Source: a virus
Virus record (IMG/VR): IMGVR_UViG_3300007276_000114
Location: 1 to 38,973 of that record
Strand: one strand, 5' to 3'
DNA: 38,973 nt
The notes under the pieces were generated by a model. That model did not search any database. It had not been told where the DNA came from and worked only from the letters and a program-made list of their open reading frames with translations. Below, piece by piece: positions 1 through 34,164 of the stretch. The stretch's first letter is position 1, and the number at the start of each line of letters is the position of its first letter. A program made the translations under genes and the position numbers.

Positions 1-1263
1 ACCTGTAACAGCTGTTTCAAATGTAGGTGCAGCTCCTGCTCCATTACTAGTTAATATTTGTCCTGAATTACCTGTAGCTACCGTAGTTGGAGCTGCGTCA
101 GCACCCCATGTAATTAATTGTCCGTCTGTACCAGCAGCTAAGTCAGCTACATCTACATTGCTGAGACTGTTACCAGTACCATTAGCATCAAAAGTCTTGT
201 TAGTGAAAGTATCAGTAGTAGCTTTACCTACAATAGTATCACTAGCATTAGGTACAGTCAAAGTACGAGTAGTACCTGAAGATACTCCACTTACTTGAAA
301 GGCTAATTGCTTAGTATTATCACCATCATCTTGTACTCTAAAGACATCATCTTGTACACTAGAGACAGCACCAGCTGATATACCGTTTAACTGAGTCTGA
401 ATGTTAGAACTTACACCATTAAGATAAGCAAACTCAGCGTTACTTACAGTACCATTGTGTATCTTACTAGCATCTATAGCAGCACTACCATTAATGTCAG
501 CATTAGTGATAACTTCTGAACCAATAGAAGTAACACCAGCATTAGAGATAGTTACATCTCCTGTAACAGCTACATTATCAAAATCTGTACCATCAGCTAC
601 CAATATGTGAGTATTAGTAGCAGCATAAGAGTCATCAAATAGAGCTATCTTAGCTCCTGTAATGGCATCATTAGCGATCTTACCTGTGGTGATATTTAAG
701 TCTGCAATATGTGCGGTATCTATAGAACCATCAGTATAATGCTCTGAATCTACTGCATCATCTGCTAATCTAGTACCATTAATAGCATCAGCTTCTATCA
801 TTGCAGTCTCTACTGTACCTGCACCTATAGTCGTTACTCCTGCTGTAGAGATCGTAACATCACCTGATACTGCTACAGACTCAAAGTCTGTACCATCAGC
901 TATTAAGATGTTACCTGAAGTAGCTAGGTTAGTGTCTGAAAAGGAATCAAGCTCATCTAAGGCTTCCTGAGCCATGTAGAAGGCCTGTAGACTATCAGTG
1001 TCCAGATCAGTCTCTGATAGGTTACTACCATCCACATAATCAACCAAGCGAGTACCCTGAGAGGTTGTCCGTTTGACTAGGACCTTCTCAGATCCTGCTA
1101 GTGTCGGTGAAGATATAAGAATTTCACTATCACTATTCCAAGTAAAGGTGGCTGTAGTACCATCCACTTCTACTGTGATATGAGATCGACTGATAAACGG
1201 AAATGTTACCCCGAATGCCTGAGTATTACCATCAGCAGTGTATTGTACTTTTGAATTAGCCAT
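1..1263 (-). CDS. Tail fibre protein, gp17-like, N-terminal 421 residues (cut at window edge)
   Basis: The first ~110 residues resemble the T7 gp17 N-terminal domain that anchors the fibre to the tail: an early beta-rich segment (YTADGNTQAFGVTFPF), then VKRTTSQGTRLVDYVDGS and an ALDELDSFSD helix. The rest is repetitive and rich in Asp, Gly, Thr and Ala (IADGTDFESVAVSGDVTIS and similar), as in the shafts of many marine podovirus fibres. The receptor-binding tip is not in the window, because the frame is still open at base 1. The ATG at 1263 has an AAGGAAA ribosome site about ten bases upstream, and the gene begins three bases after the stop of the preceding internal virion gene. It is the last gene of the virion block, as in T7. 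The N-terminal assignment is strong; the ligand is unknown. Confidence 0.88.
   Translation of the reverse strand, partial: MANSKVQYTADGNTQAFGVTFPFISRSHITVEVDGTTATFTWNSDSEILISSPTLAGSEKVLVKRTTSQGTRLVDYVDGSNLSETDLDTDSLQAFYMAQEALDELDSFSDTNLATSGNILIADGTDFESVAVSGDVTISTAGVTTIGAGTVETAMIEADAINGTRLADDAVDSEHYTDGSIDTAHIADLNITTGKIANDAITGAKIALFDDSYAATNTHILVADGTDFDNVAVTGDVTISNAGVTSIGSEVITNADINGSAAIDASKIHNGTVSNAEFAYLNGVSSNIQTQLNGISAGAVSSVQDDVFRVQDDGDNTKQLAFQVSGVSSGTTRTLTVPNASDTIVGKATTDTFTNKTFDANGTGNSLSNVDVADLAAGTDGQLITWGADAAPTTVATGNSGQILTSNGAGAAPTFETAVTG
520..909 (-). repeat. Internal duplication in the tail fibre shaft
   Basis: Two ~29-residue segments, at 823-909 and 520-606, are near-identical in protein (ILIADGTDFESVAVSGDVTI versus ILVADGTDFDNVAVTGDVTI, both followed by an AGVT.IG turn). 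They start 303 bases apart, so the shaft is built from a ~101-residue repeat. Such duplications can expand or contract by recombination and change fibre length. Confidence 0.75.
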
Positions 1264-1266
1264 TAA

Positions 1267-3462
1267 TTAATTTCCTTGGAGTGAGTCAAAGATACTTCCT
1301 TGACTTTTAAATTTACTAGTCATTGCCCTACGTCCTAAGGCATCTTTTTCAAACTGTTTATCATTCATAAATTGGACTTGTAACCGTGTATATTTCTTTA
1401 GTACATAGGACCCTGCTGCCTTACGGGTTTCGGTTAGAAGTGCTCTTAATTTGTATTTTTCTTCTTCCTCTGGCAACTTTCTGAGAGCTTTCATTCTAGG
1501 ATGGACGTGTTCTTTGTTTAGTTCAGCCCATTTAGTTTGAAAATCATTAGCTTCCTCGTCTGATAACTGCATTCCCAAGTAACTTTCTGTAGACTCAGCT
1601 CCTTTTAAACTTATATCTAATTCAACAACTCTTCTAGTAATTGGGTCAGTTTTCTCTGATACTAATGTAGAAGTTCTTATTGGTAATGTGAGAGCCTTAA
1701 GTGTATCTCCAGCTTTATGTAGAATATGAGAGGCTCCCAAGTGTAAGTCAGCATTACTTTCCATTCCTGGGTGGAACGTAGCATTACCATCATAGTTTAA
1801 CTTAGGAAATTTAGTTTTAGAGAACCCTGGAATCTCCTCTACAAAGTTCTCATAACCAAGTTTCATTACTTGTATGAACTTTTTATAAACAACATCCAAT
1901 ACCTCATCTCCCGCCTCACCTACTGAGGGTAAATCAACATTTAAGTCTCTAGTAGAGTCCATTCCTTTATTGATACCTCGTCTAAAAGAACCATAGAATG
2001 TACCTAGAGGGTTTAACGGAGTAACAGCAGTCTTTATCATTCGTTTCATGAATCTAGGATCACCAGATACACCATCAACAAAGATAGCTACACCCTGTAA
2101 ATAGTGCCTGTCAGAGATTACATGAGCTAGTGCAAATACCGCATCGGATAATGATTCTTGGTATGCATCAAATAATTGTGAGGTAGTACCAAATTCATCA
2201 GCATAACCATTAATATCAACAAAAGACTTGGCAAGTGTTGCTAAGTTTGCTGACGTTAATAGGAAGACTGAAATTGGATCAGCCTTATTAATAGGAGTAT
2301 ACTGTCCTGTCTCAGAATCATACCAGCTGTTAGGCTGTATTTGAGCATCTCTCCATCTTTGAGCTAGTACTGGGTCAGTAGGGGCAGCTCCAGTGATAAG
2401 ACCTGACATAGCAAGGCCTATACCTGCACTATAAAGCGTTAATCCTGTAGCTAACTTAGCCTCTGCAAGCTGTTGGGCAGCAAGTCCCTGCTCTCCCTTC
2501 ATCGCAGAAACCACATCTTGACTAAAGCTTCTTAGTCCAGGGGTTCTCTGTCCTACAAAGTTAAGTAATTGTACTGGAGTTTTAAAGAAAGGAACGAATA
2601 CTTTACCAAGTCCCGTAGGATCATTCTGTAATGCTTGATTGATACCCTTCTGGAAGCCCGTCTTCTCTATTCTTTTTTTGGTAAGCTTATCTACTTCAAT
2701 TCTATCAGGTAAATCATTCGTGAATGTGTTGATGTTTGCAAACTCTTGAGCCTGTTCTCGTATCTCTCTGGGGGTATTAGCGTTCAGTTCACTGGTAATG
2801 TTACGGACTTGATTAAAATCATTAAGAGTCTTGGGGTTTCTACCTAGTCTTCTTAGTGCTTCTCTGTGTATAAGAGCATTTTTCTGTCCTGCATAGTTAA
2901 CCATCTTAAGAGCTTCATCAGAAGCAAGTAGTAATTTACCAGGATAGTTAACTACATCCCCTACAAAGTCTATAAACTTGGCAACATTTCCTCCTGCTCC
3001 AAAAGCTTCACTTGATACTGCTCTTTTTCTTGGGTTTACAAAGTCAGTTTTAGCTGCAACAGCCTCAAATGTGTCGGCTTTCATTACTTCAACGAACTTT
3101 TTAAGTGATTGAGGGACCGCATCCATCATCCCCTTAGCTAAGATATTAGCTTCTTTAAACGATACACCACCCATTTCATCTCTACCTGCGTTTCTTAATG
3201 CTGCATAGCCCCTTTCAAAAATGGAGGAAGTTATAGAAAAAGCAGTCCCTGCTAAGTTAGATACAAAAGTAGATGGCCTAGAAAGCAAGCCATTAATATA
3301 GATTTCAAGTAATGCATTCTTTGATCTAACGAATAGGCTATCTCTAAAATAGGAAGCTACTGCTCTAACGGACTTACTATCACCAGAAACCGTAGTCTTT
3401 AGTTGCTGTCTAGCAAGATCGTCTAATTTTCCTGTAGGTGGTATACATACGTCTTTTGCCAT
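1267..3462 (-). CDS. Internal virion / ejection protein, C-terminal part of a gp16-like protein
   Basis: A 731-residue protein with no catalytic motif I recognise. Near residue 59 it has LLSRPSTFVSNLAG, a signature I associate with the large ejected inner-core proteins of podoviruses, followed by helix-rich sequence and short hydrophobic stretches near residues 340-360 (LTLYSAGIGLAMSGLITGAA). It lies between another large internal protein and the tail fibre, where T7 has gp16. Together with the upstream 658-residue gene it matches the size expected of gp16 without its transglycosylase domain. ATG at 3462 is two bases after the upstream stop and in a different frame. The ribosome site is weak, suggesting translational coupling. 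The role (inner core and DNA ejection) is inferred from position and size. Confidence 0.7.
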   Translation of the reverse strand: MAKDVCIPPTGKLDDLARQQLKTTVSGDSKSVRAVASYFRDSLFVRSKNALLEIYINGLLSRPSTFVSNLAGTAFSITSSIFERGYAALRNAGRDEMGGVSFKEANILAKGMMDAVPQSLKKFVEVMKADTFEAVAAKTDFVNPRKRAVSSEAFGAGGNVAKFIDFVGDVVNYPGKLLLASDEALKMVNYAGQKNALIHREALRRLGRNPKTLNDFNQVRNITSELNANTPREIREQAQEFANINTFTNDLPDRIEVDKLTKKRIEKTGFQKGINQALQNDPTGLGKVFVPFFKTPVQLLNFVGQRTPGLRSFSQDVVSAMKGEQGLAAQQLAEAKLATGLTLYSAGIGLAMSGLITGAAPTDPVLAQRWRDAQIQPNSWYDSETGQYTPINKADPISVFLLTSANLATLAKSFVDINGYADEFGTTSQLFDAYQESLSDAVFALAHVISDRHYLQGVAIFVDGVSGDPRFMKRMIKTAVTPLNPLGTFYGSFRRGINKGMDSTRDLNVDLPSVGEAGDEVLDVVYKKFIQVMKLGYENFVEEIPGFSKTKFPKLNYDGNATFHPGMESNADLHLGASHILHKAGDTLKALTLPIRTSTLVSEKTDPITRRVVELDISLKGAESTESYLGMQLSDEEANDFQTKWAELNKEHVHPRMKALRKLPEEEEKYKLRALLTETRKAAGSYVLKKYTRLQVQFMNDKQFEKDALGRRAMTSKFKSQGSIFDSLQGN

Positions 3463-3464
3463 AA

Positions 3465-5441
3465 TTAGATATCACAAAATCTTATTGGAGGTTCTTGGTT
3501 TCTGCCAGCATCTGTTAGTTGACTACCCTCTTTCTCAAAGTTAGTAGCTTGGTCATCCAGTGACTTGGTTATTCTCTGGATATTACTTGCTTGAGATGCT
3601 AGTGCTTCACTTGTTTTCACATCTGGATAGAGTATTCTCATTGCAATTTGAGTCCTAAGAGAATTAACATCTTCTAAATCATCTCCCCTAGATGTCTTCT
3701 TAAAGGTTCTTAATAGATCACTAGCTTCGTAGGATAGACCACTAGCAGCTTCTACAGTCGATGCAGACTCTACTACAGCCCTTCTCATAAGAAATTCATT
3801 GTTTCCAGTAGGATCTATATTGTATTTTTCTACAGCTTGCATAGCTTTCTTAGTACGCAACATAGCAAAGGCCTTAGCAGCTACAACATAAGCCTTAGCA
3901 TTCTTTACGTTACCTACAGTCTTCTCTAAACTCTTTTGCATTTCGTCTGCTGATACTCCTGCAAAATCAGCAAAATCAGCTACAAGTTCTTTCTCATCTA
4001 AGTTCTTAGGGAGTCTATCAGACATAGCCTCAGCTACATTAAATAGTAATCTCTTCATACTCTCAGGACCAATAACCTTATCCAAATTGAACGGGATACT
4101 AAGATCATCTATAGCTCTCATTTCCCCTTTACCAGCTCTCATAAATACATCTACAAGGTCGTCTAGTTCGTCAGGGGAAAATGATTTCTCAGGATCAAGA
4201 GACTCTAGGTTACGTTCAGGTGACGCAGAGGAATTATATTCATTTTTAGCTCCTCGTAGTTTACTAGCAGCATGTATTTCACTAGTTACCTGTGAGTTAG
4301 ACTTAGTACCATCAGGATTAAAATCAAACTCTAACTGTTCTCTTCTTAATGTTTCTTCACCACCAGGAAGACCATCAAATAAATCCTTCTTAGCTTCTGG
4401 TGATAGGTTTTGTACAGCATCAGCTATTGTCTCTGTGTCTTCAGCTATCGCTTCTCTTACTTCAGCTTCTAGTTCTTTAGGTTTTCTTGCCTTAGCTATA
4501 CCACGTCCTATTAACCGGATTACTTTCTCAACTAATATTCCACCAACAGCATTAGTAAAGGCACTCTTAGCTCCCTGCATAGCTCTTGAGTCCTCTGAAT
4601 TAAAACCTACAAATTCCTTCAACATCTGTCCTAGAGTACTATCCTCTGAGATTAAGTGTGTCTGTATTAAGATGTCAGCTAAGTTTCCATCCTCAGGTTT
4701 GATAGCTAAGGCATCAACTGGGATACCTGCTAGAACACCATTTACAGAACCTGCTAGTACCTTATTGGTACGCATTAACTTTCCGAATTTTGTCAATGGT
4801 GACTTGGTTCTTAAACTAGGCTTAACAGCACGTCTGGATTTAGCAGCAACTTTAAGAGCCGTTGTAGTAACCTTAGACGCTACACCCACAGCAGGAGTGA
4901 ACGGACCAACAAACTCAATAATTCCAGTAGCAACTCGTTCAAAGGTAGTCTCTGGAGACATACCCGTTTCCTCAGGGGTAAAGAGTAAATCACCATCACT
5001 ACCTAAACCCTCTAGTTCTACCCCAAAATGGGTCTTAACAAAATCCTTTACTCCAAATATCTCATTAAGAGCTTCAGAGGTATTATTAATAGCATTGGTC
5101 AGTCCCGCTGATGTAGACTTGAATAGAGCATTCTCTTTGATGGTGTCATTCATTTGACTAAGAACACCTGGAGCATTCCTACGGAGTGCCTCAGCTTCAG
5201 CAGCAGAACGCTTCACTTGTTCTTTTTCAGCTAATAATGTTTGTTGCTCTAACTCTTGTTCCCTAACATCTTCTTGTAGTCGAACTCTACGCATAGCGTC
5301 ATAGTCAACCCTAAAGTCATTAGGAGATAACTGTGTAACAAGACCTGTTTCAGGACTAGTAACTTGTAACAGCTTTTCCTGTTGTTTCTCAGCTGTTCCA
5401 ATAGCGTCCTCTGTGGCTTGTTCTTTAAACCCTAAAGGCAT
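3465..5441 (-). CDS. Internal virion protein, N-terminal part of a split gp16-like protein
   Basis: A 658-residue protein, strongly charged and helical at the N-terminus (predicted coiled coil around EDVREQELEQQTLLAEKEQV). Small-residue-rich and hydrophobic segments follow near residues 170-245 (IIEFVGPFTPAVGVASKVTT and AGSVNGVLAGIPVDALAI). There is no transglycosylase motif. Its ATG overlaps the stop of the preceding gene (TAATG), so translation is probably coupled. With the 731-residue product of the next gene it covers about 1390 residues, close to T7 gp16 after its lytic domain is subtracted. I infer an inner-core or ejection protein. No specific motif proves homology, and a lineage-specific structural protein is an alternative. 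Confidence 0.65.
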   Translation of the reverse strand: MPLGFKEQATEDAIGTAEKQQEKLLQVTSPETGLVTQLSPNDFRVDYDAMRRVRLQEDVREQELEQQTLLAEKEQVKRSAAEAEALRRNAPGVLSQMNDTIKENALFKSTSAGLTNAINNTSEALNEIFGVKDFVKTHFGVELEGLGSDGDLLFTPEETGMSPETTFERVATGIIEFVGPFTPAVGVASKVTTTALKVAAKSRRAVKPSLRTKSPLTKFGKLMRTNKVLAGSVNGVLAGIPVDALAIKPEDGNLADILIQTHLISEDSTLGQMLKEFVGFNSEDSRAMQGAKSAFTNAVGGILVEKVIRLIGRGIAKARKPKELEAEVREAIAEDTETIADAVQNLSPEAKKDLFDGLPGGEETLRREQLEFDFNPDGTKSNSQVTSEIHAASKLRGAKNEYNSSASPERNLESLDPEKSFSPDELDDLVDVFMRAGKGEMRAIDDLSIPFNLDKVIGPESMKRLLFNVAEAMSDRLPKNLDEKELVADFADFAGVSADEMQKSLEKTVGNVKNAKAYVVAAKAFAMLRTKKAMQAVEKYNIDPTGNNEFLMRRAVVESASTVEAASGLSYEASDLLRTFKKTSRGDDLEDVNSLRTQIAMRILYPDVKTSEALASQASNIQRITKSLDDQATNFEKEGSQLTDAGRNQEPPIRFCDI

Positions 5442-8317
5442 TAACGGGACTCCAGTTTCTTGTCACGTCTATCTATTCGGTCTTTCTCAGCCTTCAAACC
5501 CTGTAACATCTTAGCTATGGCTACCATTGTATTAATTTTAGGATCATTCAATAGTGGCTGTAGTGTTGTAAGTGAAGCCTTCTTAAGAGTAGCCAGTGAT
5601 AAACCTGTTAATTTTGCAGCAGTAGGTCCAAACTGTCCTTGCTTAATAACGTCTTGAAAGGTCTGAGGTTTAACTTGTAATTCTCCAGTAGCTCCTCTTC
5701 CATCACTTCTCTTCTTACCAGAAGCAATACCAAAGCTTGATTCAGCAGAGTATATACCAATAAGTATTTTCTCTAACTCTGAAGGTCTTAAGTTAAGAGT
5801 TTTCATCTCTTTCTCAAAAGCCAATATTGACGTGTCCATATTGTTCTTAAGTGTCTCAATATTAGCCTTCTGTAATTTAGATATACGTCCTGTATTAACT
5901 AGACTTGCAGCTTGATTAAAGTTTTTAATATAAGATGTCTTGGCAGATTCCTCTGTATTATAAATCTTTTGAACAAGTTCTGCCGTTACTACTTTCCCTG
6001 CAACAGGGGGTTCAGTAGGACGAACAACACCCCCACGAGCAACCTTTTTAATGTTTTCAATGTCTTCTTTTAAACCTCTTTTAGCGTCCTTAGCTGTCTC
6101 TGACACAAATTCTCCTGTCTTTATGATGCCTTTAGTTATATTACCAACACCTTCAAGGATTTCTTGGCCTATTTCTTTAACATTTTGTCCAGACCGTTCT
6201 AAACCTTCTGAAAGATTTTTACCTGTTAGTCCGGTAGACTTCCCAAGATTTTCTAGGCGTTTACTAAAGGATATTTGTTTTTTAGTTATGTTTGATTGTA
6301 CTCTAGGTTTAACTTTTGAAGTAGTTTTCACTGGTTGAGTTGGCTGATCTGTTTGCTTCACGGCAACCATATTGCTTTTAGGATCTGGACTAGTATCTTC
6401 TTTAGCAAAGCCATCTTTACCTGCCTCAGGTAACTTAGTAGTCAATGAAACTTCAGGAGATGTCTTACTCTGTCTACTAACCCATTCCTTTAATTCTTTT
6501 TGATGGTTAGTTGTTACGGGTATCGTCTTTGTCAAATCAACTTTATCTGGAAGTTCAGGTACGCCTAATTCTGTAAGATCTTTACCCGTTGATTCCTTCT
6601 TATCTTCATCTTCACCTACAAGAAAACTCCTTCTAAAGGCTTCAGATTCTGTACGAATTAATGCAATCTTGTCATTTTCAGTCTTGGAGTCATCATCCCT
6701 TATTGATTCTAACTGTTGTCTAAAACCATTTATTTTATTATCAATAGTAAATTGATCTTGTTTTGAGAAGCGGTAATTAGAACCAAACGCAGCCATACCA
6801 CCACCAGCGTCAATGGGTTTTATCTTTTGACCATCAACAAAGAAAGTAGTGTCTTTGACAAACTTCCCAGTCATAAGATTGTTTGCCATCTTCATTTGTC
6901 TATCAATTTCTTTTTCTTCTACAGCCGTCATATTAGTTTTATGTTTATCCCAACCATCTTGTATAAAATTTATATCCTTAGCACTAAAAATTCCTTTATA
7001 GGCAGGATCACTTAAGAAAGTATCAGGAGTCTTGGCTGTGTTATGTTCTCTCATCTGTCTTACCACCCAAGAAGCTAGGGTAGGATTACCATTTATTTCC
7101 CCAGTCTCTAAAAGTGCTTTGATAAAATTAAAAGCAGAAGTTTTCTTAGAGGTAGGAACAAGTGATGGATCATAGGTTATAGGTTGACCCTGAGTATCTG
7201 AATTAGGATTAGTATCTATAAAAGATCCAGGCGTATGTAAATTATGTCTACCTAGGGTATAAGCATTCAAATCATCTATACTATTAATACCACCAGGGAT
7301 ACCTACCATCTCTCTCATTTGTCTGAAATAGGTACTAGTGCTACGAGCTACCTTTTGAGCTAGATCCTTAGTTGACTGTTGGGCCTCTCTAGTTTCTTTA
7401 GTAAATCTCTTGTCATATAAATCTTTAATTCTAGCTTCAACTTGTGTAGCTAATCTAGGCCTACTACGGAGAGTAATCTTTCCCTTACCAACCCTCGTGT
7501 TCTTCATCATGTCTTCAAATATTGATGGAGCTATGTCATTGCGTAATGCAAAGTCATGATAGATATCTATTAACTGACTCTCAATAGCCTCTTCATCCTT
7601 ATGTCCCGCAAGAGTTAACTTCAGACTATTTAGATCTGCATGAAATGTATCCGCAGAAAGGATTTGGTTAGAAGGTTCCTTGAGTTGCTTACGAGCTCTT
7701 AATGATTCTACAGCACTACTGAATCCAGTATCTACAACACTGTCCGTAATGCTCTCGTTATTTAATTTTAGAAACGAATCATCAGCACTAAGGATAGCTT
7801 TATCTAGGGTAGGACGGATAGCAGCTAATTGTAACGGAGTAAAACCTGATTGATCTAAGAAATGTTTAACCTGTATGGCAGACTCAGAGGAAAATGTTAC
7901 AGCCTTTTGTCCTCCATCAAACTGCATTCCAGTTATAGGATCAATTGTAGTAGCTACAAGAGCCATAGCTCGTTCATTGGTACTTGCCAGAAATCCTGTC
8001 GCAAACTTACTAGCAGCTAACACAGCATTCTGTTTGTCATATTCTATTTGTGCATCTGGATGAGATAGAGCAGGAAGATCTTTTTTCTGTAACGCAGCCA
8101 TCCTACCTAATATTACGGCATTATGTGATCTACGTTGTCTCTCAAAGTTTCCTACATTCTGCAAAGCATTAGATAATAGATTAGCTCCAGCAGAGAACTG
8201 CTGATCCTGTGCAGTGGTGTCTAGGATAGCTTGAGTGGGACTGATTTTGTTTACAGGTTTCTCTACTGCTGTGTCTAGTGTATTTAGTTGTGGAACTTTA
8301 AAGATATCTGGAGGCAT
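5441..8317 (-). CDS. Internal virion protein, gp15-like with C-terminal lytic transglycosylase domain
   Basis: A 958-residue protein. Residues 1-700 are helix-rich without recognised motifs and correspond in position to T7 gp15. The C-terminal ~110 residues carry a soluble lytic transglycosylase (SLT, lysozyme-like) signature: IYSAESSFG with the putative catalytic Glu at about residue 859, then GATGELQVKPQTF about 17 residues later. In T7 this domain, which opens the peptidoglycan locally during DNA ejection, is at the N-terminus of gp16. Here it is fused to the upstream protein. A low-complexity Pro/Lys/Thr-rich linker (about residues 640-700) precedes it. ATG at 8317 sits one base after the preceding stop, and AGGAT overlaps that stop. 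The SLT call is strong, the gp15 correspondence moderate. Confidence 0.8.
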   Translation of the reverse strand: MPPDIFKVPQLNTLDTAVEKPVNKISPTQAILDTTAQDQQFSAGANLLSNALQNVGNFERQRRSHNAVILGRMAALQKKDLPALSHPDAQIEYDKQNAVLAASKFATGFLASTNERAMALVATTIDPITGMQFDGGQKAVTFSSESAIQVKHFLDQSGFTPLQLAAIRPTLDKAILSADDSFLKLNNESITDSVVDTGFSSAVESLRARKQLKEPSNQILSADTFHADLNSLKLTLAGHKDEEAIESQLIDIYHDFALRNDIAPSIFEDMMKNTRVGKGKITLRSRPRLATQVEARIKDLYDKRFTKETREAQQSTKDLAQKVARSTSTYFRQMREMVGIPGGINSIDDLNAYTLGRHNLHTPGSFIDTNPNSDTQGQPITYDPSLVPTSKKTSAFNFIKALLETGEINGNPTLASWVVRQMREHNTAKTPDTFLSDPAYKGIFSAKDINFIQDGWDKHKTNMTAVEEKEIDRQMKMANNLMTGKFVKDTTFFVDGQKIKPIDAGGGMAAFGSNYRFSKQDQFTIDNKINGFRQQLESIRDDDSKTENDKIALIRTESEAFRRSFLVGEDEDKKESTGKDLTELGVPELPDKVDLTKTIPVTTNHQKELKEWVSRQSKTSPEVSLTTKLPEAGKDGFAKEDTSPDPKSNMVAVKQTDQPTQPVKTTSKVKPRVQSNITKKQISFSKRLENLGKSTGLTGKNLSEGLERSGQNVKEIGQEILEGVGNITKGIIKTGEFVSETAKDAKRGLKEDIENIKKVARGGVVRPTEPPVAGKVVTAELVQKIYNTEESAKTSYIKNFNQAASLVNTGRISKLQKANIETLKNNMDTSILAFEKEMKTLNLRPSELEKILIGIYSAESSFGIASGKKRSDGRGATGELQVKPQTFQDVIKQGQFGPTAAKLTGLSLATLKKASLTTLQPLLNDPKINTMVAIAKMLQGLKAEKDRIDRRDKKLESR

Positions 8318-8318
8318 A

Positions 8319-8927
8319 TTATCCTAGCTCTGAAGAAGGACCACCACCTACGGGTGTCCCTACAGGCACTACTTCTCCTGTGGTTGGATCTTTCTTGAAT
8401 CCTGTTTGTAATCCAGTTCCTATAGCTAGTCCAGCTAAGGATAGTCCTAATCCAGCAGCACTACCTCCAGCAGAGATATTGTCTAATTCCCTGATATTTG
8501 CATTGATAGTACTATCAGTGATGTTCTGGATACGTTGTTCACCATTAATTAGCTTACGTTCAAGAGCAAGTTCTCGTCTTTGTCTTGCATCCCAAGCCTG
8601 ACGTGTAATGTTAGTCAATCTGTTTTGTAACGTATTTGATCCTGCCTGTCCTTGCCCTTCTGCTTGAGCTATTATTGTAGATGCTTGTGATCTAAGTGAT
8701 TTAACAATTACAGAACTATCCATTTTAAATGAAATTAATTCTAGGCTCTGTTGAAGTCTCTCTGCTGCTTGTTGTTTTGGAGCATTGGCATTATTAGCTG
8801 CCCAAATACTAGCTGCTCTATTAGTACTCTGTATGGCAGCTCGATTAGCATTCCCGTACTGACGGTATGAATCATAAGTCTTTAAGAGAGCTGATCCAAT
8901 GTAGAAAGCTTCTACTGGTATACTCAT
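8319..8927 (-). CDS. Internal virion protein B, gp14-like
   Basis: A 202-residue protein in the position of T7 gp14, which helps form the trans-envelope channel for DNA ejection. It begins with a short hydrophobic segment (VEAFYIGSALLKTY), continues as Ala/Gln/Asn-rich helices (AANNANAPKQQAAERLQQSL, ITRQAWDARQRRELALERKL) and has a Gly/Ala-rich hydrophobic stretch (SAAGLGLSLAGLAIGTGL) near residue 160, ending in a Pro/Gly tail. This helix-then-hydrophobic layout is usual for podoviral gp14. The start overlaps the stop of the gp13-like gene by four bases (ATGA). Assignment rests on gene order, size and composition. Confidence 0.72.
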   Translation of the reverse strand: MSIPVEAFYIGSALLKTYDSYRQYGNANRAAIQSTNRAASIWAANNANAPKQQAAERLQQSLELISFKMDSSVIVKSLRSQASTIIAQAEGQGQAGSNTLQNRLTNITRQAWDARQRRELALERKLINGEQRIQNITDSTINANIRELDNISAGGSAAGLGLSLAGLAIGTGLQTGFKKDPTTGEVVPVGTPVGGGPSSELG

Positions 8928-9370
8928 GCTAACCTACAAAATTCATAGAACTTCACGTTATTAATAACCTTTTCTCCAATTATCTTAAAGCCACACCATT
9001 TGATCCACTTAAGATGTACTTCATTTCTTGAGTCAATAAAGTTACAGAGATGTGGGAATACACTATTCATACCATCCACCTCCGATCTTGATTGTTTAAG
9101 GAAAGCAGTCTTGATCTCTATGAGACCTTCACTACCTAGCATCCATACTTGTCCTGTCTTCTCTGTCAATGGGACTACACCATACATCCCTACTACTCTA
9201 CCTCTATGATCTATGATAGTCCTACATATCTGACTACCACCAAAGGCTAGAGCTAAGGCTTTCTCTGCACTATGACCTAAGGTAGTCACTTCACGTTCAT
9301 CTTCGTACCTTAGGTGTAACGATAAGTACGCTGCATCGTCTAGCCTAGATTGCCTATGATAAGGCTTCAT
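8924..9370 (-). CDS. gp13-like internal virion protein A, acyltransferase-like fold
   Basis: A 148-residue protein immediately after tail tube protein B, the place of T7 gp13. The layout fits a GNAT-like fold as in gp13: ALALAFGGSQICRTIIDHRG (beta strands with a 'see and report' pattern), GVVPLTEKTGQVWMLGSEGL, then NEVHLKWIKWCGFKIIGEKV near the C-terminus, similar to the closing segment of gp13 homologues where a position-dependent 'residue-host' motif lies. T7 gp13 is needed for virion assembly and is not known to be an active enzyme. A strong CAGGAGA ribosome site precedes ATG 9370. Whether any acyltransferase activity persists cannot be told. Confidence 0.68.
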   Translation of the reverse strand: MKPYHRQSRLDDAAYLSLHLRYEDEREVTTLGHSAEKALALAFGGSQICRTIIDHRGRVVGMYGVVPLTEKTGQVWMLGSEGLIEIKTAFLKQSRSEVDGMNSVFPHLCNFIDSRNEVHLKWIKWCGFKIIGEKVINNVKFYEFCRLA

Positions 9371-9371
9371 G

Positions 9372-11849
9372 TTATCTCCTGCCCACAGTCCTCACTACAT
9401 AGTTACCTTCATAGTCTGCACCAGTAAAGGCACATGGAAGGTATGAATCTGAGATGAGTTCTAATTTTAAATTCTTAGCATCTGATAATATTAACTTCTT
9501 AAAGTTACCTGTCTCAAATGGTATAACACCTATCTGATTGAGAGGGCCACCTAGTATCCTACCAGTAAATACATGACTAAATGGATCTCTACCAGGGGCA
9601 GTTACTTGTAACTTAAAGTACCCTGAATTAAAATAATCTACAGACCATTTACGAATCTTAAGAACACCTCCTGGTAGGGAAGTTAATCTACCTTGCACTT
9701 CAGTCTTAATAGTAGGCTCAGTAAACTCATAGAGAAATCTGTATTCCTTACCAATAAATGCAGTGTTCTTAGATAGGTCTCCTGAGACTTGGAGTGTACT
9801 CTCAGTAGGTTGAGTGACTCCCTGTACCTGATCCCCTTCTCTACCAGTCCACATAGGACCAAGAATTACTCTAAAGGTAGATCCAAAGTTATCAGGATAG
9901 GGTAGTGTCCAAGTAGTCGTATCAGCAGTAGGGTTATAGTGACCTTTTAGTTCTACTAGTCTGTCTAACATTACCTTAAACGGGAGCTGTGTGGCACTCT
10001 CAGTGAGTCCTACCAACTTAGCATCCTGTAAGGACATCTTATCTAAATAGGTTCCATCAGGGCGTACTATGATCAGATACAAGAAATGATCTATTACTGT
10101 AGCCCCTATAACCTTCTCTTCTTCTTTCAATTGCCACTTACTCCAACTACTTAATTTCTTCTGTCCTTGTTGGAATAGGAACTTATAAATAAATATTTCA
10201 TGTAGGTTCTCATCAGATAATACAAAGAGAAAGTCATCATGAGGTATAATTTCAAAGCCTTTACCCTTGATATAACTAGGTACATGAGACGTAATGTTTT
10301 CTGCTGTTTCTTCTTGTAGATCTTCTACTATACCAAACTCTCTTAGTACAGAGAAACCGTCATTCTCATCAGAGAAGTAGATCTTCCTGCCGTTAACTAC
10401 TGGAACTACATTCTTATCATGATCATACTCAGTGATAAGTGAGAGCTTTGCATTAGTTGGAGTAAGTCCACCAGCAGCAAACTCAGTTAACTTAAATTGA
10501 GCAAAGTCACTAAATAGAAATAGGTCCTCATTGAATGGTATAGCACTTCTTAGTACACTAACCTTATTGGTAGGAGCTGCTAAGTCAATAGTAGCCGTAT
10601 CCAACAGGTCCGTAGCAGTAGTAATATAGAAATTAAAGAACTCTCCTAGTTCTGATAATATCACATTTTCATTAGCTAGAAAGCCAAACCTATTCTTGTG
10701 AAAGAACATATCATTGATAGTTTCTCCGACAAAGGATGGATCAGGAGAGGTCTCTTCATCACCTGCTATCCTATCGTCCCATGTAACCTGTGATAATGAA
10801 AAGTCTGGTCTACCAAAGTCATCAGAAAATATATCATCCCAAGGATCTGGGGCTCCTCTGATAAGCTGTAATGGTAAGGTAGAAGGATCTAGGCTATTGG
10901 CAAGTCCAGGTTCTACGGTCTCTATCCATTCCCCTACATCTTCATCCGATTGATTCTCATGTCTAATCCAATAATCATCAGCAGAACTACCAGGATCACC
11001 TGTAACCTTGATGATAAATCCATCTTTGGTTCGTGCTGGAAGTTCTGTAAAGTTTTCTACAGTGTCCTTGATGGCTATCATGTTAGCCTCAGGAGCTTCT
11101 GCATGGAGTGTAAAGTCTGCACCATCTGACCTTGTTACATGGACATTACTACTACCAAACTTGGTAATAATAAAGCCAGCAGTAGCCATAGCATTAGCTA
11201 CATTGGTAACTAAAGTATCAGCATCTGCGTCAGCTGTGATAGCACCTACTGAGGTCCCATCTAAGAAGACTTTAAATGTAGTAGCAGAGGAGGCCTGTTT
11301 AATAAATACTATGCCCTCAGGGTTCCTGACAGCACTGACATCACTACTCTTAGCTACTGTAGTGCTCTTATTTAATACAAAAGTATAGTCAGCTACGGTG
11401 AACATCTTTAAGTTGTCACGAGCATCAGCTGTAGTGATATAACTTAAGGCATCACCTGTACCTGCCCCTGCAAGACTTCTATCTAAATGTATGTCTCCAA
11501 AGTCTGTACCAAAGGCATCATCCCAAGGGTCTGTGAATGTGTCTAAGCTGAACATCTCCATCTCAGAGCCTGTGAAGTCATCTGTGAAAGCTGAATCAAA
11601 CTGATTGGAGGAGGTTACTAATACATACCTCTCATTCTCATCTCTATCAATGAAATGGATCTTTGCATCTGTATCTGTCTTATTGCTTAACTTAGCAACA
11701 TGCTCAATGGGTGGTCTCTTCTTAAGACCTTCAGCCACCGTAGCCATCCCATTAATCTGCTCCTCACATTGAGATGCAAGCCTAACAGTAGGGGGTTGCT
11801 GAGATACACCATTAATTAAATTAGAAATCTGCTCCGAAATTAATGGCAT
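9372..11849 (-). CDS. Tail tubular protein B, gp12-like
   Basis: An 825-residue protein close in length to T7 gp12 (~794), the tail nozzle subunit. The N-terminus (ISEQISNLINGVSQQPPTVR, then CEEQINGMATVAEGLKKRPP) is the diagnostic opening of tubular protein B: the virion nozzle begins with a 'NGVSQQPP..R...Q...' motif. Later DDMFFHKNRFG-like and NENVILSELGEFFNFYITTA segments are also typical. It follows the gp11-like gene by three bases. The start has only a weak ribosome site, so coupling to the upstream gene is likely. It assembles with gp11 into the non-contractile tail and binds the fibres. Confidence 0.93.
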   Translation of the reverse strand: MPLISEQISNLINGVSQQPPTVRLASQCEEQINGMATVAEGLKKRPPIEHVAKLSNKTDTDAKIHFIDRDENERYVLVTSSNQFDSAFTDDFTGSEMEMFSLDTFTDPWDDAFGTDFGDIHLDRSLAGAGTGDALSYITTADARDNLKMFTVADYTFVLNKSTTVAKSSDVSAVRNPEGIVFIKQASSATTFKVFLDGTSVGAITADADADTLVTNVANAMATAGFIITKFGSSNVHVTRSDGADFTLHAEAPEANMIAIKDTVENFTELPARTKDGFIIKVTGDPGSSADDYWIRHENQSDEDVGEWIETVEPGLANSLDPSTLPLQLIRGAPDPWDDIFSDDFGRPDFSLSQVTWDDRIAGDEETSPDPSFVGETINDMFFHKNRFGFLANENVILSELGEFFNFYITTATDLLDTATIDLAAPTNKVSVLRSAIPFNEDLFLFSDFAQFKLTEFAAGGLTPTNAKLSLITEYDHDKNVVPVVNGRKIYFSDENDGFSVLREFGIVEDLQEETAENITSHVPSYIKGKGFEIIPHDDFLFVLSDENLHEIFIYKFLFQQGQKKLSSWSKWQLKEEEKVIGATVIDHFLYLIIVRPDGTYLDKMSLQDAKLVGLTESATQLPFKVMLDRLVELKGHYNPTADTTTWTLPYPDNFGSTFRVILGPMWTGREGDQVQGVTQPTESTLQVSGDLSKNTAFIGKEYRFLYEFTEPTIKTEVQGRLTSLPGGVLKIRKWSVDYFNSGYFKLQVTAPGRDPFSHVFTGRILGGPLNQIGVIPFETGNFKKLILSDAKNLKLELISDSYLPCAFTGADYEGNYVVRTVGRR

Positions 11850-18652: not shown

Positions 18653-20587
18653 TTACTTTACAGGACATACACCTGACTCACACTCATCATTTTGCATCTC
18701 TAAAGCTGAATCAGTACCACCAAAGTCTACTTCTGTGAGCTGTGCTACATACTCTTTATACCTCTGCTCTGTTACTACTTCTTGCGGGAGGTATTCATAG
18801 GTACTATTAGTAACGGGAAGAAAGCTAACACCAACATAGCTAGACCAATTAGTTTTAAGCCACTTTCTAATAGCAGGGATTTCATCCTCTTTATAAGAAA
18901 TTGTAATCGAGCAGTTCTGTTCAACGTAAGAATCCATGAGTAGCTTGTACCTTGCCAACTGTTCAAGAGCCGTCTCGTTGTTAACATATAACTCTCCTTC
19001 TTTATCAAACCTTATGTTCTCCCAACTTACTGGGAATGTAACGAGTGCATTATTGTCATCAATAGGATTAGTAACAACATGGTATCCTGCCTCTCGTAGT
19101 TTAGGTAACAAGGGATCATTAACACTAAAGTTAACATTATTAAATATGTACTTCCCTGCTGGTTTATGACAACCCTCCGTAGTGTCCATGATCTTACTCA
19201 AAGTACCACTAGGTTTAATAGTAGTCACATTCTTAGGACGTTGAGTACCTAACTCATCAGCCATTGAGTATGCTGCATGTACTGCTGTATTCTTTAGACG
19301 CTTATAGTTGTATTCAAAGAGGTCGGCACGAGTTGCGATCCCCGTAAGACCCACCCCACAGAGTCTGAGATTTTCATTATTCTCATGCCATGTTCTTTGT
19401 AGTATCCCATCATCGAGGTTAACGAGTGTTTGCCTATAGTTCGCTCTTGCAATGAGGTAAATTGCTCGTTCAAGTCCTCCGCTATCGTCTCTAAACTTAC
19501 TGATATCGACTTCGGATAGGTTACAGAAAGATTTATTTCCAAGGAGTATTTCTGCACAGGGATTGACCCCTGAGAACCACGGTGCTCTACGCCTAGCTTC
19601 TTCTCCGTTGATAATTCCTGGTTCTGATCCTCCCGACTCAGATATGATCCTGAATAGTTGTTCAAGTTGATCGTCACTTGGTTCCTTCCAAAAGACTACA
19701 CTGTTATTAGATTGAGCACGGTGAGGTAGTATTGATAGGTCCTCCTTAGCCCTTGCAAACTCTTCCCACTCTGGAGTGTCATGATACACCAATGCAATCT
19801 CCGCTGATCTACGAGAAGACAGCACAGTACCCAACCAGTTCATAACATCCAAGATGTCCATCTTACTTAACAACTCTCCAGATTTCTTGTTCAGAATATG
19901 AACGATAGCTGACAGTGCTTTGGCAAGTGGCCCATCCCCACTGGATATCCATCCATATCCTGCGAGACGTTGACCTGCGGGTCGTAGTTGTGTGAAATCG
20001 AGTACGAGCTTTGTAGCTTTCCCTTTGTATGCCAGAATCTTACCGATACACTTTGCCCATGCTTCAGCGGAGTCTCCAACTGTAATACTCCAAGTCCCAT
20101 TATTCGTAGACTCTTTGTTTCCTTCATGTCCACCTTTCTTTGTACGTTTACTTCGTAGGATTTCAATAATGGTAATGGGTGACGTAAAGCCACTAAGTGT
20201 TCCCACAACTGGCGTGAAACCCACTCCACAACCTTGTAACAAGAGCCACAAAGAGTCAACAACGTCATGAATAGTCTCCACTTTCAGGTGAGCACAATTG
20301 AACTGACTAGCTTCTCTCTTCTTAGCTACATCAGTTCCCCCTAGCCATAGTGTCCTACCCGATACCATTACCTTACGGTCTAACATAAGCTGACGTAGTT
20401 CTTCTAGCTCTGCACACACAGTCTGATAGTACACACCCTCAGGGTTAGGCTTACCTAAAGCTCTATCCCATAGCCAGCCTTGGTGACGGATAACTCTATC
20501 AACTGTCTCCTCCCATGTCTCATAACCTGTGTCCGTAGGTCTATTGTAGGTACGTCTAGTTATTACTTGAGCTCTAACTGAAGTCAA
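18653..20587 (-). CDS. Adenosylcobalamin-dependent (class II) ribonucleoside-triphosphate reductase
   Basis: A 644-residue monomeric class II reductase making dNTPs from NTPs for phage replication. Key residues fit the Lactobacillus RTPR pattern. N342-P-C344-A-E346 is the radical-site N-x-C-x-E motif. C98 (in QFNCAH) and C355, eleven residues after C344, form the active-site redox pair. C636 and C641 (CESGVC near the C-terminus) are the CX4C thiol shuttle. LLQGCGVGF near residue 120 is also typical. The start is TTG at 20587 overlapping the MazG-like stop, with GGAGGGA upstream. The first ATG is far downstream. Use of B12 removes the need for oxygen or a small subunit. It is somewhat shorter than bacterial RTPR (739). 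Confidence 0.94.
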   Translation of the reverse strand: MTSVRAQVITRRTYNRPTDTGYETWEETVDRVIRHQGWLWDRALGKPNPEGVYYQTVCAELEELRQLMLDRKVMVSGRTLWLGGTDVAKKREASQFNCAHLKVETIHDVVDSLWLLLQGCGVGFTPVVGTLSGFTSPITIIEILRSKRTKKGGHEGNKESTNNGTWSITVGDSAEAWAKCIGKILAYKGKATKLVLDFTQLRPAGQRLAGYGWISSGDGPLAKALSAIVHILNKKSGELLSKMDILDVMNWLGTVLSSRRSAEIALVYHDTPEWEEFARAKEDLSILPHRAQSNNSVVFWKEPSDDQLEQLFRIISESGGSEPGIINGEEARRRAPWFSGVNPCAEILLGNKSFCNLSEVDISKFRDDSGGLERAIYLIARANYRQTLVNLDDGILQRTWHENNENLRLCGVGLTGIATRADLFEYNYKRLKNTAVHAAYSMADELGTQRPKNVTTIKPSGTLSKIMDTTEGCHKPAGKYIFNNVNFSVNDPLLPKLREAGYHVVTNPIDDNNALVTFPVSWENIRFDKEGELYVNNETALEQLARYKLLMDSYVEQNCSITISYKEDEIPAIRKWLKTNWSSYVGVSFLPVTNSTYEYLPQEVVTEQRYKEYVAQLTEVDFGGTDSALEMQNDECESGVCPVK

Positions 20588-20964
20588 TTGATTAGTCCCT
20601 CCAAGGTAGGTGGTTCATAATTAGGACCCTTCTGTACCTTACCGTCATCTAGCTTAGTGTAGGGGAGCTTAGTCATGTTGCTCTGGTGTACTCTATTGAA
20701 AGCTTCTTCCAAGTCCCAACCAAAAGTAATTGCCATGCCATATATGACATACATACAATCACTCATTTCTTTAAGAAATTCCTCCTGTCTGATTAGTAAC
20801 TCTTCTTTACTATCAATAGTAGATAGAGACAAGGACTCACCAGCCTGAGCCAACTCCATAAACTCTTCAGCTATAAGCTTCATCCTAAAGTTAAATAACT
20901 CTGAGTTAAACTCACTGTCTATAGGTTGGTCACAGTCCTTCATAAAATTTTCAACTCTTCTCAT
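20584..20964 (-). CDS. MazG-like nucleoside triphosphate pyrophosphohydrolase
   Basis: A 126-residue all-helical protein of the MazG/PRA-PH superfamily. The metal-binding acidic residues are visible in RMKLIAEEFMELAQAG (an EExxE pattern) and in EFLKEMSDCMYVIYGMAIT (ExxxD). The C-terminal FNRVHQSNMTKL and GKVQKGPNYEPPTL are characteristic of phage members. Such enzymes hydrolyse (d)NTPs or ppGpp-like nucleotides; phage copies are thought to adjust nucleotide pools. It is the gene before ribonucleotide reductase and overlaps both neighbours, so a shared nucleotide role is likely. GGGAG precedes ATG 20964. Confidence 0.85.
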   Translation of the reverse strand: MRRVENFMKDCDQPIDSEFNSELFNFRMKLIAEEFMELAQAGESLSLSTIDSKEELLIRQEEFLKEMSDCMYVIYGMAITFGWDLEEAFNRVHQSNMTKLPYTKLDDGKVQKGPNYEPPTLEGLIN

Positions 20965-27058: not shown

Positions 27059-29459
27059 TATTCATTACCTCCTCTATCTTCAGTTCACCATATTTAGGGA
27101 CAGGAGGCAACTCGATATCTGTCATCTTCTGAACCTCAGCTTTGAAATTATGTAAAACATCCTCTGAATATATTTTGACAAACTCTTGTCTAATAACTTT
27201 AGATAGTATCTCCATGTCGCAAGCATGAGTGCCAAACGAATCATGAACCACCGCAAAGCTCTCGATACCATGCCGTCTCCTAGCTCCTAATATTGTAAAC
27301 ATTAAATGACTTGCATCATAGCTATGAACAAAGTTAGGGGCAATCCCATTACTCTGTCTATCCTTATTAAGTTTGTCTCCATCAAATGAATTAGAGAATA
27401 AGGAAGCAGCTTGTCCATTTATAACTGTCCTAATTTGTTTGACAGTAGACTTCATGTACTTCTGCTTGACTAAGAGTCCTATGGGTGTAGTCCAATACAG
27501 GCACTTATTTTCTTTAGCTAGTATCTTAGCTATACTTTGTAGCCAAGTCATGATCTCCTGAGCAGAGCTAACTGTAGTGCGTATGCCCTCATAGATATGA
27601 TATGCCAAGTACTTACAATGGGGCCAAAGACTGTTATTCTTATCCATGTTCTTGAACTTAATTCCCTTGTCCATCTGCTTCTTAAGTTCCTCGTAGATCT
27701 GTTCCCGCATGCCATATAGAGTAGAGCCATAAGGTGTAGTCATAACAGGACGTTTAACCATAGATCTATTTACGTCCTTACCATTGTTCCATAAATCACT
27801 ACCGTCACTATCATCCAACTCTATTCTTTTTACTACCTCTTGCCTAACGATATCGTAGATGTCTGCTGGTACATCATTAGGTAAGAGATTGACAGCTTTC
27901 CCTCCGTTCCCATCCCTTAGCATACCAGCAAAGTGCTGGAGACCGTTGCAACTTCCATCTACTGTCACAGGGATAGAGGAGATAAATTCTGGGTTGTTGT
28001 TAGCTTTAGTCCACTCAATACAGAAACTAAGAAACTGCCAAGGCTTATCAGCTTCCATCCACCAAGGCCATGCTTTAGGATCACTCCCACACTGCCTGAT
28101 AGACTTTTCATTATGTATAGTCCATTCATACCTATCTTCTAAAGACACCTTATCTTCACCAAAGCAGTTAGCTCCATGTATAGCAAGCCATGCTAGTCCG
28201 GTATCCCCAAGCTTCTTCTTTTCTGCAAACTTAAGTAAGCCTCTTGCACTATCCTCCCCCTGAGGATTGAGGAACGCAGTATTAGCATATAGTCTTCCTC
28301 TGAAATCAATGGTGTGAGGAAAATAGAATCTTTTTTCATCTTTAAACTTTCTTGCCATCCACATAAGTTGTGCGAATTGTATGCGTTTGGTTTTTCTTCT
28401 AACATTGTCTCCATGCATGAAGGTTGCTTCTCGTTTCCATTCCACTTGTTCATCTACTGTTCCTTCTTTCGGATATGGTCTAGGCATTGTCCTTTCTTCA
28501 AACTCAGGTATCACATTGCAGTGTATCTGGTTGGTGAATAAGTAATCCATTACACTAAACACTTCTTTGTTTATAGTCCATGCTGTTTCTTGAACGGCAT
28601 TAACAGCTGCTAGGAGCTCTGATAGATTTGTACTCTCTAGCTGTCGTTTATAGGCTACATCATTAGTCTTAATTAAGTGCATCTTAGTATAGACGTAATA
28701 TCCACCATCATAGATATTAGTCCACATTCTAGGTGAGATGATGCACGGCATCTTAACAGGATTGAGTAGCTCACAGACACTGTTCTTACCATCAATCCAC
28801 TCTAAGGACTTCTGAGTAGCTTCAAGCATGAAGGTGGTTCTTCTTTCCTGTTTGGTGGAGGTATACTTCTTGATCTCAAAGATCAGAGTAGTTTCAGCTA
28901 TGAGGCCTATTAGTAGTTGTCCAAGTTCTACCTTGATGGTAGTGGACCAGTTCCCCCACTCTATGTCAGCCTTCATAGAAGAGTGTACTAGGACCCTCTT
29001 TTGTTTCCTGTAGTTAGTAGTTCTCTTAGATAGGTCTCTGACTATTGTACCAAACAAGGCTGGATTAGTTTTCTGGAAATAGCGAAAGCGAGCCTCGTCT
29101 TCAATGAAACCCCCAATCTCTTGTGCAACTTTAACAAGTCTAACGGGTGTCGATAGGTGATTGACACATCCCTTAAGAGCAAGGAAAGCCTGTACAGTAG
29201 GATCAAGTTCTGTGAGTTTTTCGAGTGCTTGAGCTGAGTAGTTAAGAGGTTCCCCTTTACTAGACTTGAAGATAAGATCCTCAATGCTGCGTGATACTTT
29301 AGCAACGGACTTTCTGATAAACTGAATCCCTGGAGGTGTTGTGGCTTCATGTTTCCCCTTTCTGGCAGCAGCATTCTCATCTCTATATCTCTTGAGACCT
29401 AGCTTTACCATCTCAGCTTCTAATAGTTTCTGCCTATTTAACACTACTTCAACCCCCAC
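27039..29459 (-). CDS. Single-subunit DNA-directed RNA polymerase, T7 gp1-like
   Basis: 806 residues (T7: 883). Catalytic residues are all present: D501 in TVDGSCNGLQHFAG (T7 D537), K569 and Y577 in VKRPVMTTPYG (T7 K631 and Y639, same spacing) and D740 in VVHDSFGT (T7 D812). IDFRGRLYANTAFLNPQGED and IAPNFVHSYDASHL are strongly T7-like, and the C-terminus EFFFS parallels DFAFA. The shorter length comes partly from a missing segment between D501 and K569. The specificity-loop region (about 670-700) differs from T7, so promoters will differ. Start is GTG 29459 (GTG 29444 possible), overlapping the oxygenase stop. It transcribes middle and late genes. Confidence 0.97.
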   Translation of the reverse strand: MGVEVVLNRQKLLEAEMVKLGLKRYRDENAAARKGKHEATTPPGIQFIRKSVAKVSRSIEDLIFKSSKGEPLNYSAQALEKLTELDPTVQAFLALKGCVNHLSTPVRLVKVAQEIGGFIEDEARFRYFQKTNPALFGTIVRDLSKRTTNYRKQKRVLVHSSMKADIEWGNWSTTIKVELGQLLIGLIAETTLIFEIKKYTSTKQERRTTFMLEATQKSLEWIDGKNSVCELLNPVKMPCIISPRMWTNIYDGGYYVYTKMHLIKTNDVAYKRQLESTNLSELLAAVNAVQETAWTINKEVFSVMDYLFTNQIHCNVIPEFEERTMPRPYPKEGTVDEQVEWKREATFMHGDNVRRKTKRIQFAQLMWMARKFKDEKRFYFPHTIDFRGRLYANTAFLNPQGEDSARGLLKFAEKKKLGDTGLAWLAIHGANCFGEDKVSLEDRYEWTIHNEKSIRQCGSDPKAWPWWMEADKPWQFLSFCIEWTKANNNPEFISSIPVTVDGSCNGLQHFAGMLRDGNGGKAVNLLPNDVPADIYDIVRQEVVKRIELDDSDGSDLWNNGKDVNRSMVKRPVMTTPYGSTLYGMREQIYEELKKQMDKGIKFKNMDKNNSLWPHCKYLAYHIYEGIRTTVSSAQEIMTWLQSIAKILAKENKCLYWTTPIGLLVKQKYMKSTVKQIRTVINGQAASLFSNSFDGDKLNKDRQSNGIAPNFVHSYDASHLMFTILGARRRHGIESFAVVHDSFGTHACDMEILSKVIRQEFVKIYSEDVLHNFKAEVQKMTDIELPPVPKYGELKIEEVMNSEFFFS

Positions 29460-29980
29460 ATAACTAAGGTTTTTCTGACACCTTTTTTAACCGGATCAAC
29501 TTTATGTCTCCAGCCAGCAGGAAATACTGTAAGCATACCATATTCTTTATGTACTTTAGTTATATGATCCCCACTATCAATCTTGAGCTGTCCACCACTG
29601 TAGGCCTTAGGGCTCGTGAGTTGTAACACTCCCGCCAAGACTCTGTTATTCACTACACTGTCTTCTTTTTTATCATTGCCTATATCCCTATGCCACCTGT
29701 AGTGTCCACCATTCTGATACACAGAGAACTGGAAGGCTTGCATCATGGTTATAGGTGCTGTGGTGAAATACTTAGCAGCCTGAGTAAATAACCATAGGTT
29801 CTCTGCTACGGGCTGTATCCAAGAGATATCAGTCTTACGTTTGCTATGGTTAACTACATCTTTACCCTTGGATAGGACCTTAGCATCAAAGATACCTGCT
29901 CCATATCCTAGGGTTATGATTTCATCTATTTCAGCCTTGGTGAAGGCTCCTGAGTAATGAATAGGGTACTTAGTGTTCAT
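29444..29980 (-). CDS. 2-oxoglutarate/Fe(II)-dependent oxygenase (PKHD/P4H type)
   Basis: A 178-residue double-stranded beta-helix dioxygenase. Fe(II) ligands H97 and D99 (YRWHRD) and H159 (GWRHKV), with R169 ten residues later for 2-oxoglutarate, are all present. FSVYQNGGHYRWHRD and LTSPKAYSGGQLKI, LTVFPAGWRHKV are the family signature. Marine phages often carry such enzymes, with mostly unknown substrates (protein, nucleic acid or small molecule). It lies just before RNA polymerase and overlaps both neighbours, with GGGGAGA upstream of ATG 29980, so it is an early gene. It is not obviously a TET/JBP-type 5mC oxygenase. Confidence 0.92.
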   Translation of the reverse strand: MNTKYPIHYSGAFTKAEIDEIITLGYGAGIFDAKVLSKGKDVVNHSKRKTDISWIQPVAENLWLFTQAAKYFTTAPITMMQAFQFSVYQNGGHYRWHRDIGNDKKEDSVVNNRVLAGVLQLTSPKAYSGGQLKIDSGDHITKVHKEYGMLTVFPAGWRHKVDPVKKGVRKTLVMWGLK

Positions 29981-33290: not shown

Positions 33291-33292
33291 AA

Positions 33293-33985: not shown

Positions 33986-34164
33986 TAGTACAATCGACTC
34001 CATTTCTGGGTTATAGGATTGAAAGCAAACTCTCGTTTACAATCTTTACATATCAACCATACATCTTGATTATTATTATAACTTCCGGTCCGGTCTAAAG
34101 TCCCCTCACAGTCCTCACAGACATAGGTAGGAACCAATGCATCTAATTCAGTTTGATTTAACAT
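33985..34164 (-). CDS. 59-residue zinc-ribbon microprotein
   Basis: A complete frame whose product has VCEDCEG and LICKDCKREF, two CxxC pairs about 19 residues apart, the layout of a zinc ribbon. The ATG overlaps the end of the preceding membrane microprotein, and the stop overlaps the start of the next gene (TAATG), typical of a compact early operon. Likely a nucleic-acid- or RNA-polymerase-contacting early factor, but no target can be read from the sequence. Confidence 0.65.
   Translation of the reverse strand: MLNQTELDALVPTYVCEDCEGTLDRTGSYNNNQDVWLICKDCKREFAFNPITQKWSRLY

Follow-up and report, generated by a model that had tools for sequence, protein, structure and literature searches.

In phage T7, gp15 (747 aa) is followed by gp16 (1318 aa), which is encoded by one gene, belongs to family phrog_342 and carries an SLT domain at its N-terminus. 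According to PMC8954989, gp15 and gp16 change fast, and the gp15 homologue can take over the hydrolase domain that T7 has on gp16; the named example is gp35 of phages K1E and K1-5, a gp15 homologue with lysozyme activity. Similarly, PMC11440229 presents OEP of Pectobacterium phage PhiM1 as a solved gp15-type ejection protein with a lysozyme-like domain (Gly718-Ser903), and the gp16-type protein of the same ejectosome, TEP, also has an endolysin-like domain. The gp15-position protein gp36 of phiKMV (Phikmvvirus) has a C-terminal muralytic domain annotated as "internal virion lysozyme motif", and gp37 at the gp16 position is one gene that starts at position 168 of the phrog_342 profile and lacks the N-terminal SLT part. 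For the isolated methylotroph phage MEP301 (Methylophilales; L003, positions 7885-10984), a phrog_6651-type gp16 is annotated as two ORFs (gp24 and gp23) in different frames with a 56-base overlap, which is either a frameshift error or a real split. Internal virion proteins have also been noted in variable islands of marine phages (PMC3909814).

Against this background we analysed the corresponding locus of IMG/VR record IMGVR_UViG_3300007276_000114, using the whole stretch of 38,973 bases (hereafter the window). Its three large genes between the gp14-position gene and the tail fibre probably specify the core with which a marine T7-like phage ejects its DNA, and in this core a gp15-position tunnel protein carries a wall-cutting domain in an exchangeable slot and gp16 is split in a linker.

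Gene layout and family relations

The window encodes a T7-like gene set on the minus strand, comprising terminase, RNA polymerase, primase/helicase, DNA polymerase, portal, scaffold, capsid, tube, nozzle, a gp13-like protein and the tail fibre. Further genes at 18653-20964, 29444-29980 and 32241-34003 encode a ribonucleotide reductase, a PRA-PH/MazG-like protein, a 2OG-Fe(II) oxygenase, a DNA methyltransferase and a Gp88-like protein, and no endolysin was seen among the scanned ORFs, which are part of all ORFs of the window. Four genes of 202, 958, 658 and 731 aa lie between gp13 and the tail fibre, giving the order nozzle-gp13-gp14-gp15-gp16-tail fibre with the 958-aa protein placed between the gp14- and gp16-position genes:

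9372..11849, minus strand: nozzle (gp12-like) protein, conserved flank (Pfam Phage_nozzle, E 1.4e-216)
8924..9370, minus strand: gp13-like protein, 148 aa, conserved border of the variable island (phrog_308, E 5.2e-33)
8319..8927, minus strand: gp14-position protein, 202 aa (hhalign 98.6% against the relatives' gp14-position profile)
5441..8317, minus strand: gp15-position protein, 958 aa, with C-terminal hydrolase-like domain (ORF; residues 3-96 match the relatives' gp15-position profile, hhalign probability 93)
5444..5785, minus strand: putative lytic-transglycosylase-like domain, residues 845-958 (39% identical to a separate ORF of L038; four-sequence alignment; phrog_3108, E 0.0033)
5660..5743, minus strand: putative active-site motif E859SSFG...GATGELQVKPQT, residues 859-886 (sequence; E, G and Q invariant in four sequences)
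3465..5441, minus strand: N-terminal half at the gp16 position, 658 aa (hhalign 99.9% to columns 103-549 of the single-chain family)
3460..3467, minus strand: split point with stop codon, two bases and ATG, in different frames (sequence and frames; indel simulation)
1267..3462, minus strand: C-terminal half at the gp16 position, 731 aa, phrog_6651 (PHROG E 9.2e-22; hhalign 100% to columns 764-1432)
1..1263, minus strand: N-terminal part of the tail fibre, running off the window, conserved flank (Pfam Phage_T7_tail, E 6.7e-22)

The 658-aa and 731-aa genes follow the 958-aa gene as three ORFs on this strand, just as an earlier sequence-only reading had said, with the start of the 658-aa gene and the stop of the 958-aa gene sharing one base; the 731-aa gene lies outside the range given there (3465-8317). 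That reading had also identified the proteins with T7 gp15 and gp16. Gene order and overall size are indeed alike, but we found no sequence link by hhalign between T7 gp14, gp15 or gp16 and the window proteins (no phrog_342 match; hhalign at or below 2% for the T7 gp16 family), and the T7 names therefore rest on gene order. Its size arithmetic used correct T7 lengths and carries little weight because gp15-position proteins of close relatives range from 569 to 1357 aa. Similarity to phiKMV gp36 was equally absent by hhalign, both with the 958-aa protein (0.2%) and with the profile of its relatives (0.1%).

Only the 731-aa protein has a good family match, to the phrog_6651 "internal virion protein"; the 658-aa protein alone does not match phrog_6651, and neither it nor the 958-aa protein has a good match in PHROG or Pfam. 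A tblastn search of 50,697 phage records turned up 13 distant relatives for the 731-aa protein but no relative of the 658-aa or 958-aa protein. When the 731-aa or the 958-aa protein served as the single query for a scan of IMG/VR, no relatives came back, probably because the region is so variable, since the nozzle query did find relatives (64 loci). A profile of the 731-aa region gave 80 loci, one of them not new to the set. Sequence searches of the PDB yielded no usable match for the 958-aa protein, for the profiles of the 731-aa region and of the domain, or for proteins of L026 and L104.

The C-terminal domain of the gp15-position protein and its exchange among relatives

As the sequence-only reading had noticed, an SLT-type motif lies at the end of the gp15-position protein, comprising E859 and GATGELQV. 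The SLT transglycosylase superfamily is defined by a catalytic glutamate at the end of a helix together with GxxGxxQ, and both features are present in the window domain, with the helix taken from a low-confidence model. The motif is no mere coincidence: a separate 292-aa ORF of L038, flanked by gp15-position (595 aa) and gp16-position (1663 aa) proteins, is 39% identical to this domain (BLAST E 4e-17), and related domains that match phrog_3108 occupy the same position in L023 and L089. Across these four sequences E859, two glycines, the glutamine and a phenylalanine are invariant. The phrog_3108 match is strong for L023 (E 3.8e-17) and weak for the window and L038 (E 0.0033 and 0.052). We infer that the last ~110 residues of the 958-aa protein form a putative wall-cutting domain of the transglycosylase superfamily. 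In phage records, nothing matches the window domain even at E 10, and relatives of the L023 domain are mostly annotated as hypothetical proteins of other phages, such as Gp54 of phiKO2, presumably an endolysin of a lysis cluster.

Related loci carry different domains at the same place. Matches above the curated Pfam score are to SLT (PF01464) in L036 (E 1.6e-6) and L094 (E 1.3e-8) and to Phage_lysozyme (PF00959, GH24) in L056 (E 7.5e-14) and L057 (E 2.6e-5), and L048 matches the PHROG "endolysin" family phrog_873 (E 4.1e-12). Thus L023, L036 and L056 end their gp15-position proteins with phrog_3108, SLT and Phage_lysozyme domains, respectively, despite 79-85% identity in the C-terminal part of gp16. 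The gp15-position proteins of L023 and L036 are 82-88% identical for 300 residues and 40-66% to about residue 750, after which similarity is lost, only for identity to return at 69-85% in gp16. Likewise, the separate slot ORFs of L103 and L104 share just one stretch of 31 residues, with nozzle, gp15 N-terminal and gp16 N-terminal identities of 96%, 65% and 81%. L084 and L109 present the reverse case, as their gp15 cores are mostly 18-30% identical beyond about residue 100 and their C-terminal parts, including a LysM domain in L084, 62-86%. Among relatives the slot content can be fused to gp15, encoded by a separate ORF or missing, as in the short gp15 proteins (569-580 aa) of L042, L051 and L100.

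Pair counts agree with this picture. Among the 20 loci with a complete nozzle-to-gp16 stretch (the window and 19 contigs, after removal of duplicates and of contigs without a complete nozzle), all 190 pairs match at BLAST E<1e-3 for nozzle, gp13 and both the N- and C-terminal parts of gp16, compared to 149 for gp14, 123 for the first 400 residues of gp15 and 12 for the slot, coarsely cut as either the free ORF or the 250 C-terminal residues of gp15. Five of these 12 (L056-L094, L023-L056, L102-L104, L103-L104 and L023-L094) match over a linker and not the enzyme domain, as we read their positions and lengths. The N-terminal part of gp16 is at least 60% identical over 80% in 9 pairs, 7 of which have no domain-level slot match; the slot matches over its whole length in the other two, L102-L103 and L042-L051, the latter without a slot domain. 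The sole match of the window slot in this set is L038. Compared to the window, close relatives retain 73-83% identity in the terminase, mostly 72-80% in the portal and 61-100% in the nozzle; gp14 ranges from absent to 37%, the gp16 halves reach 21-35%, and the gp15 core is unmatched in nearly all of them. Because close relatives carry unrelated wall-cutting enzymes there, the gp15/gp16 boundary looks like an exchangeable slot for such domains.

Several other features of these loci are of note. The nozzle of L014 (1384-4865) is 98% identical to that of the window, but its gp13 is 65% and its gp14 31% identical, marking a sharp recombination border, and L016 is 97% identical in gp13 and 77% in the nozzle, with an unmatched gp14. 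LysM wall-binding domains lie near the gp15 end in L084 (6852-7694, E 2.8e-15), where an uncharacterised domain follows, and in L090 (6954-7796, E 4.5e-8). A common "YDF" ending was seen, though not established, in L083, L084, L095, L102, L103 and L109. We rejected an M15 peptidase in L026 and L104: these match each other (E 5e-14) and have H...AxD and HxH patterns, presumably an M15-type motif, but comparisons with Pfam, PDB and MEP301 gp12 gave no support beyond that motif. Directly upstream of the gp16-position gene, distant relatives (L126:7398-9068, L134:7804-9063, L119:5756-8047) encode Zeta_toxin (E 1.2e-14), ART-PolyVal (E 1e-12) or GNAT/ART-like domains (below cut-off), and these genes are possible injected effectors.

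Two other explanations of the C-terminal domain have to be weighed. It could be a structural remnant without enzyme activity, given that a Pfam SLT match to this 958-aa protein is lacking even at E 1 and that both the window and L038 end earlier than L023 and L089, missing their C-terminal Y-N stretch; for these reasons its activity could be low or lost. The models of its structure are of low confidence (pLDDT 50.6 for the whole protein with 23 alignment rows, 54.3 for residues 760-958 with 4), and the latter gave neither a Foldseek match in the PDB at E 0.001 or lower nor a VIA row at Z 5. We nevertheless regard a remnant as unlikely, as the active-site glutamate, glycines and glutamine are kept across the window, L038, L023 and L089. 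The sequence-only reading had instead proposed that the T7-type SLT of gp16 crossed the gene border once and became the tail of gp15. It was right in placing a hydrolase-like domain on the gp15-position protein; the order gp15-SLT-gp16 is kept in the window, and phiKMV, where gp37 is missing the ~167 N-terminal profile positions occupied in T7 by the SLT and gp36 carries the lysozyme-motif annotation, would fit such a move. Yet most slot contents within the clade show no relation to each other; the window domain falls into one group with those of L038, L023 and L089, and neither BLAST (E 0.01) nor hhalign (probability 20) links it to the T7 SLT. Nor did the clade's gp16-position proteins or the 658-aa protein show an SLT motif. 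No gp16-SLT ancestor is found among the relatives, and a single crossing is quite improbable.

A hydrolase on a gp15-position protein is not new, since K1E/K1-5 gp35 and PhiM1 OEP are published and phiKMV gp36 is so annotated. Like the 958-aa protein, gp36 has its muralytic domain at the C-terminus, and gp37 lacks the N-terminal SLT as the window protein does, but is one gene. Compared by description, K1E/K1-5 gp35 and PhiM1 OEP resemble the window layout, and PhiM1 TEP differs in its endolysin-like domain (PMC8954989 and PMC11440229). The slot exchange seen here is a variant of known ejection-protein mosaicism; among the titles and abstract openings listed, a limited literature search, which is not proof, showed no description of unrelated hydrolases exchanged at this slot inside one clade.

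The split gp16-position gene

The gp16-position gene is a single ORF of 1261-1663 aa in all 31 close-group contigs with a complete copy (some near-duplicates included; 5 further contigs with incomplete genes left out), and the 658-aa and 731-aa proteins align to successive parts of one 1464-column profile of these relatives. The suggestion that gp16 looks split therefore holds: the two proteins are collinear halves of what is one chain in the relatives, and the gene is truly split, as sequenced, in a linker whose length varies greatly among relatives. T7 gp16 is one gene of phrog_342, whereas the window has two genes in different frames where phrog_6651 is taken as a single chain. MEP301 likewise has two ORFs, with its break further downstream. 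We rejected the idea that split gp16 genes are common in marine podoviruses: although distant loci have an extra upstream ORF, in none of the 22 loci tested do the upstream ORFs match the profile of the gp16 N-terminal half (best 5.2%).

A sequencing or assembly frameshift, with the phage having one continuous protein, had been raised as a caveat, and the different frames of the two genes, the single ORF in every complete relative and the lack of a clear ribosome-binding site upstream of the 731-aa gene would all fit it. However, the ATG follows the stop codon after only two bases with about 7 bases open in both frames, and when 103,046 single-base indels were simulated across 17 relatives, only 733 (0.7%) produced an equally tight junction. 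The position of the break in a linker of varying length also argues against an artefact, which is unlikely and to our minds very improbable. Given that no clear ribosome-binding site precedes its gene, the 731-aa protein of the split gene is probably translated by coupling.

Proposed working and meaning for the family

If T7 and PhiM1 are a guide, adsorption would be followed by ejection of the core, the gp15-position protein would form a tunnel across the periplasm, and its C-terminal enzyme may open the peptidoglycan locally around this tunnel. Both gp16 halves might then form, as a pair, the inner-membrane and cytoplasmic part. The redrawn gene borders may also alter the stoichiometry and ejection order of the core, as the sequence-only reading proposed. 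With its split gp16, the window would present as two natural chains what every complete relative studied here encodes as one.

We tentatively propose, as a possibility short of probable, that the gp15/gp16 border is a dedicated exchange slot in which unrelated enzymes, fused to gp15 or free, are swapped among close ejection machines like the tips of polymorphic toxins, fitting the phage to host wall chemistry. The slot may also load proteins for injection, because distant relatives carry zeta-toxin-like or ADP-ribosyltransferase-like domains there. Loci of the clade in which this one slot is exchanged between similar flanking proteins amount to natural experiments, and since the slot domain is what most distinguishes L023, L036 and L056 from one another, and L103 from L104, the part of the slot in host range can be tested. 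These loci bear on how phage DNA gets past the peptidoglycan and on the reasons for the rapid evolution of ejection proteins.
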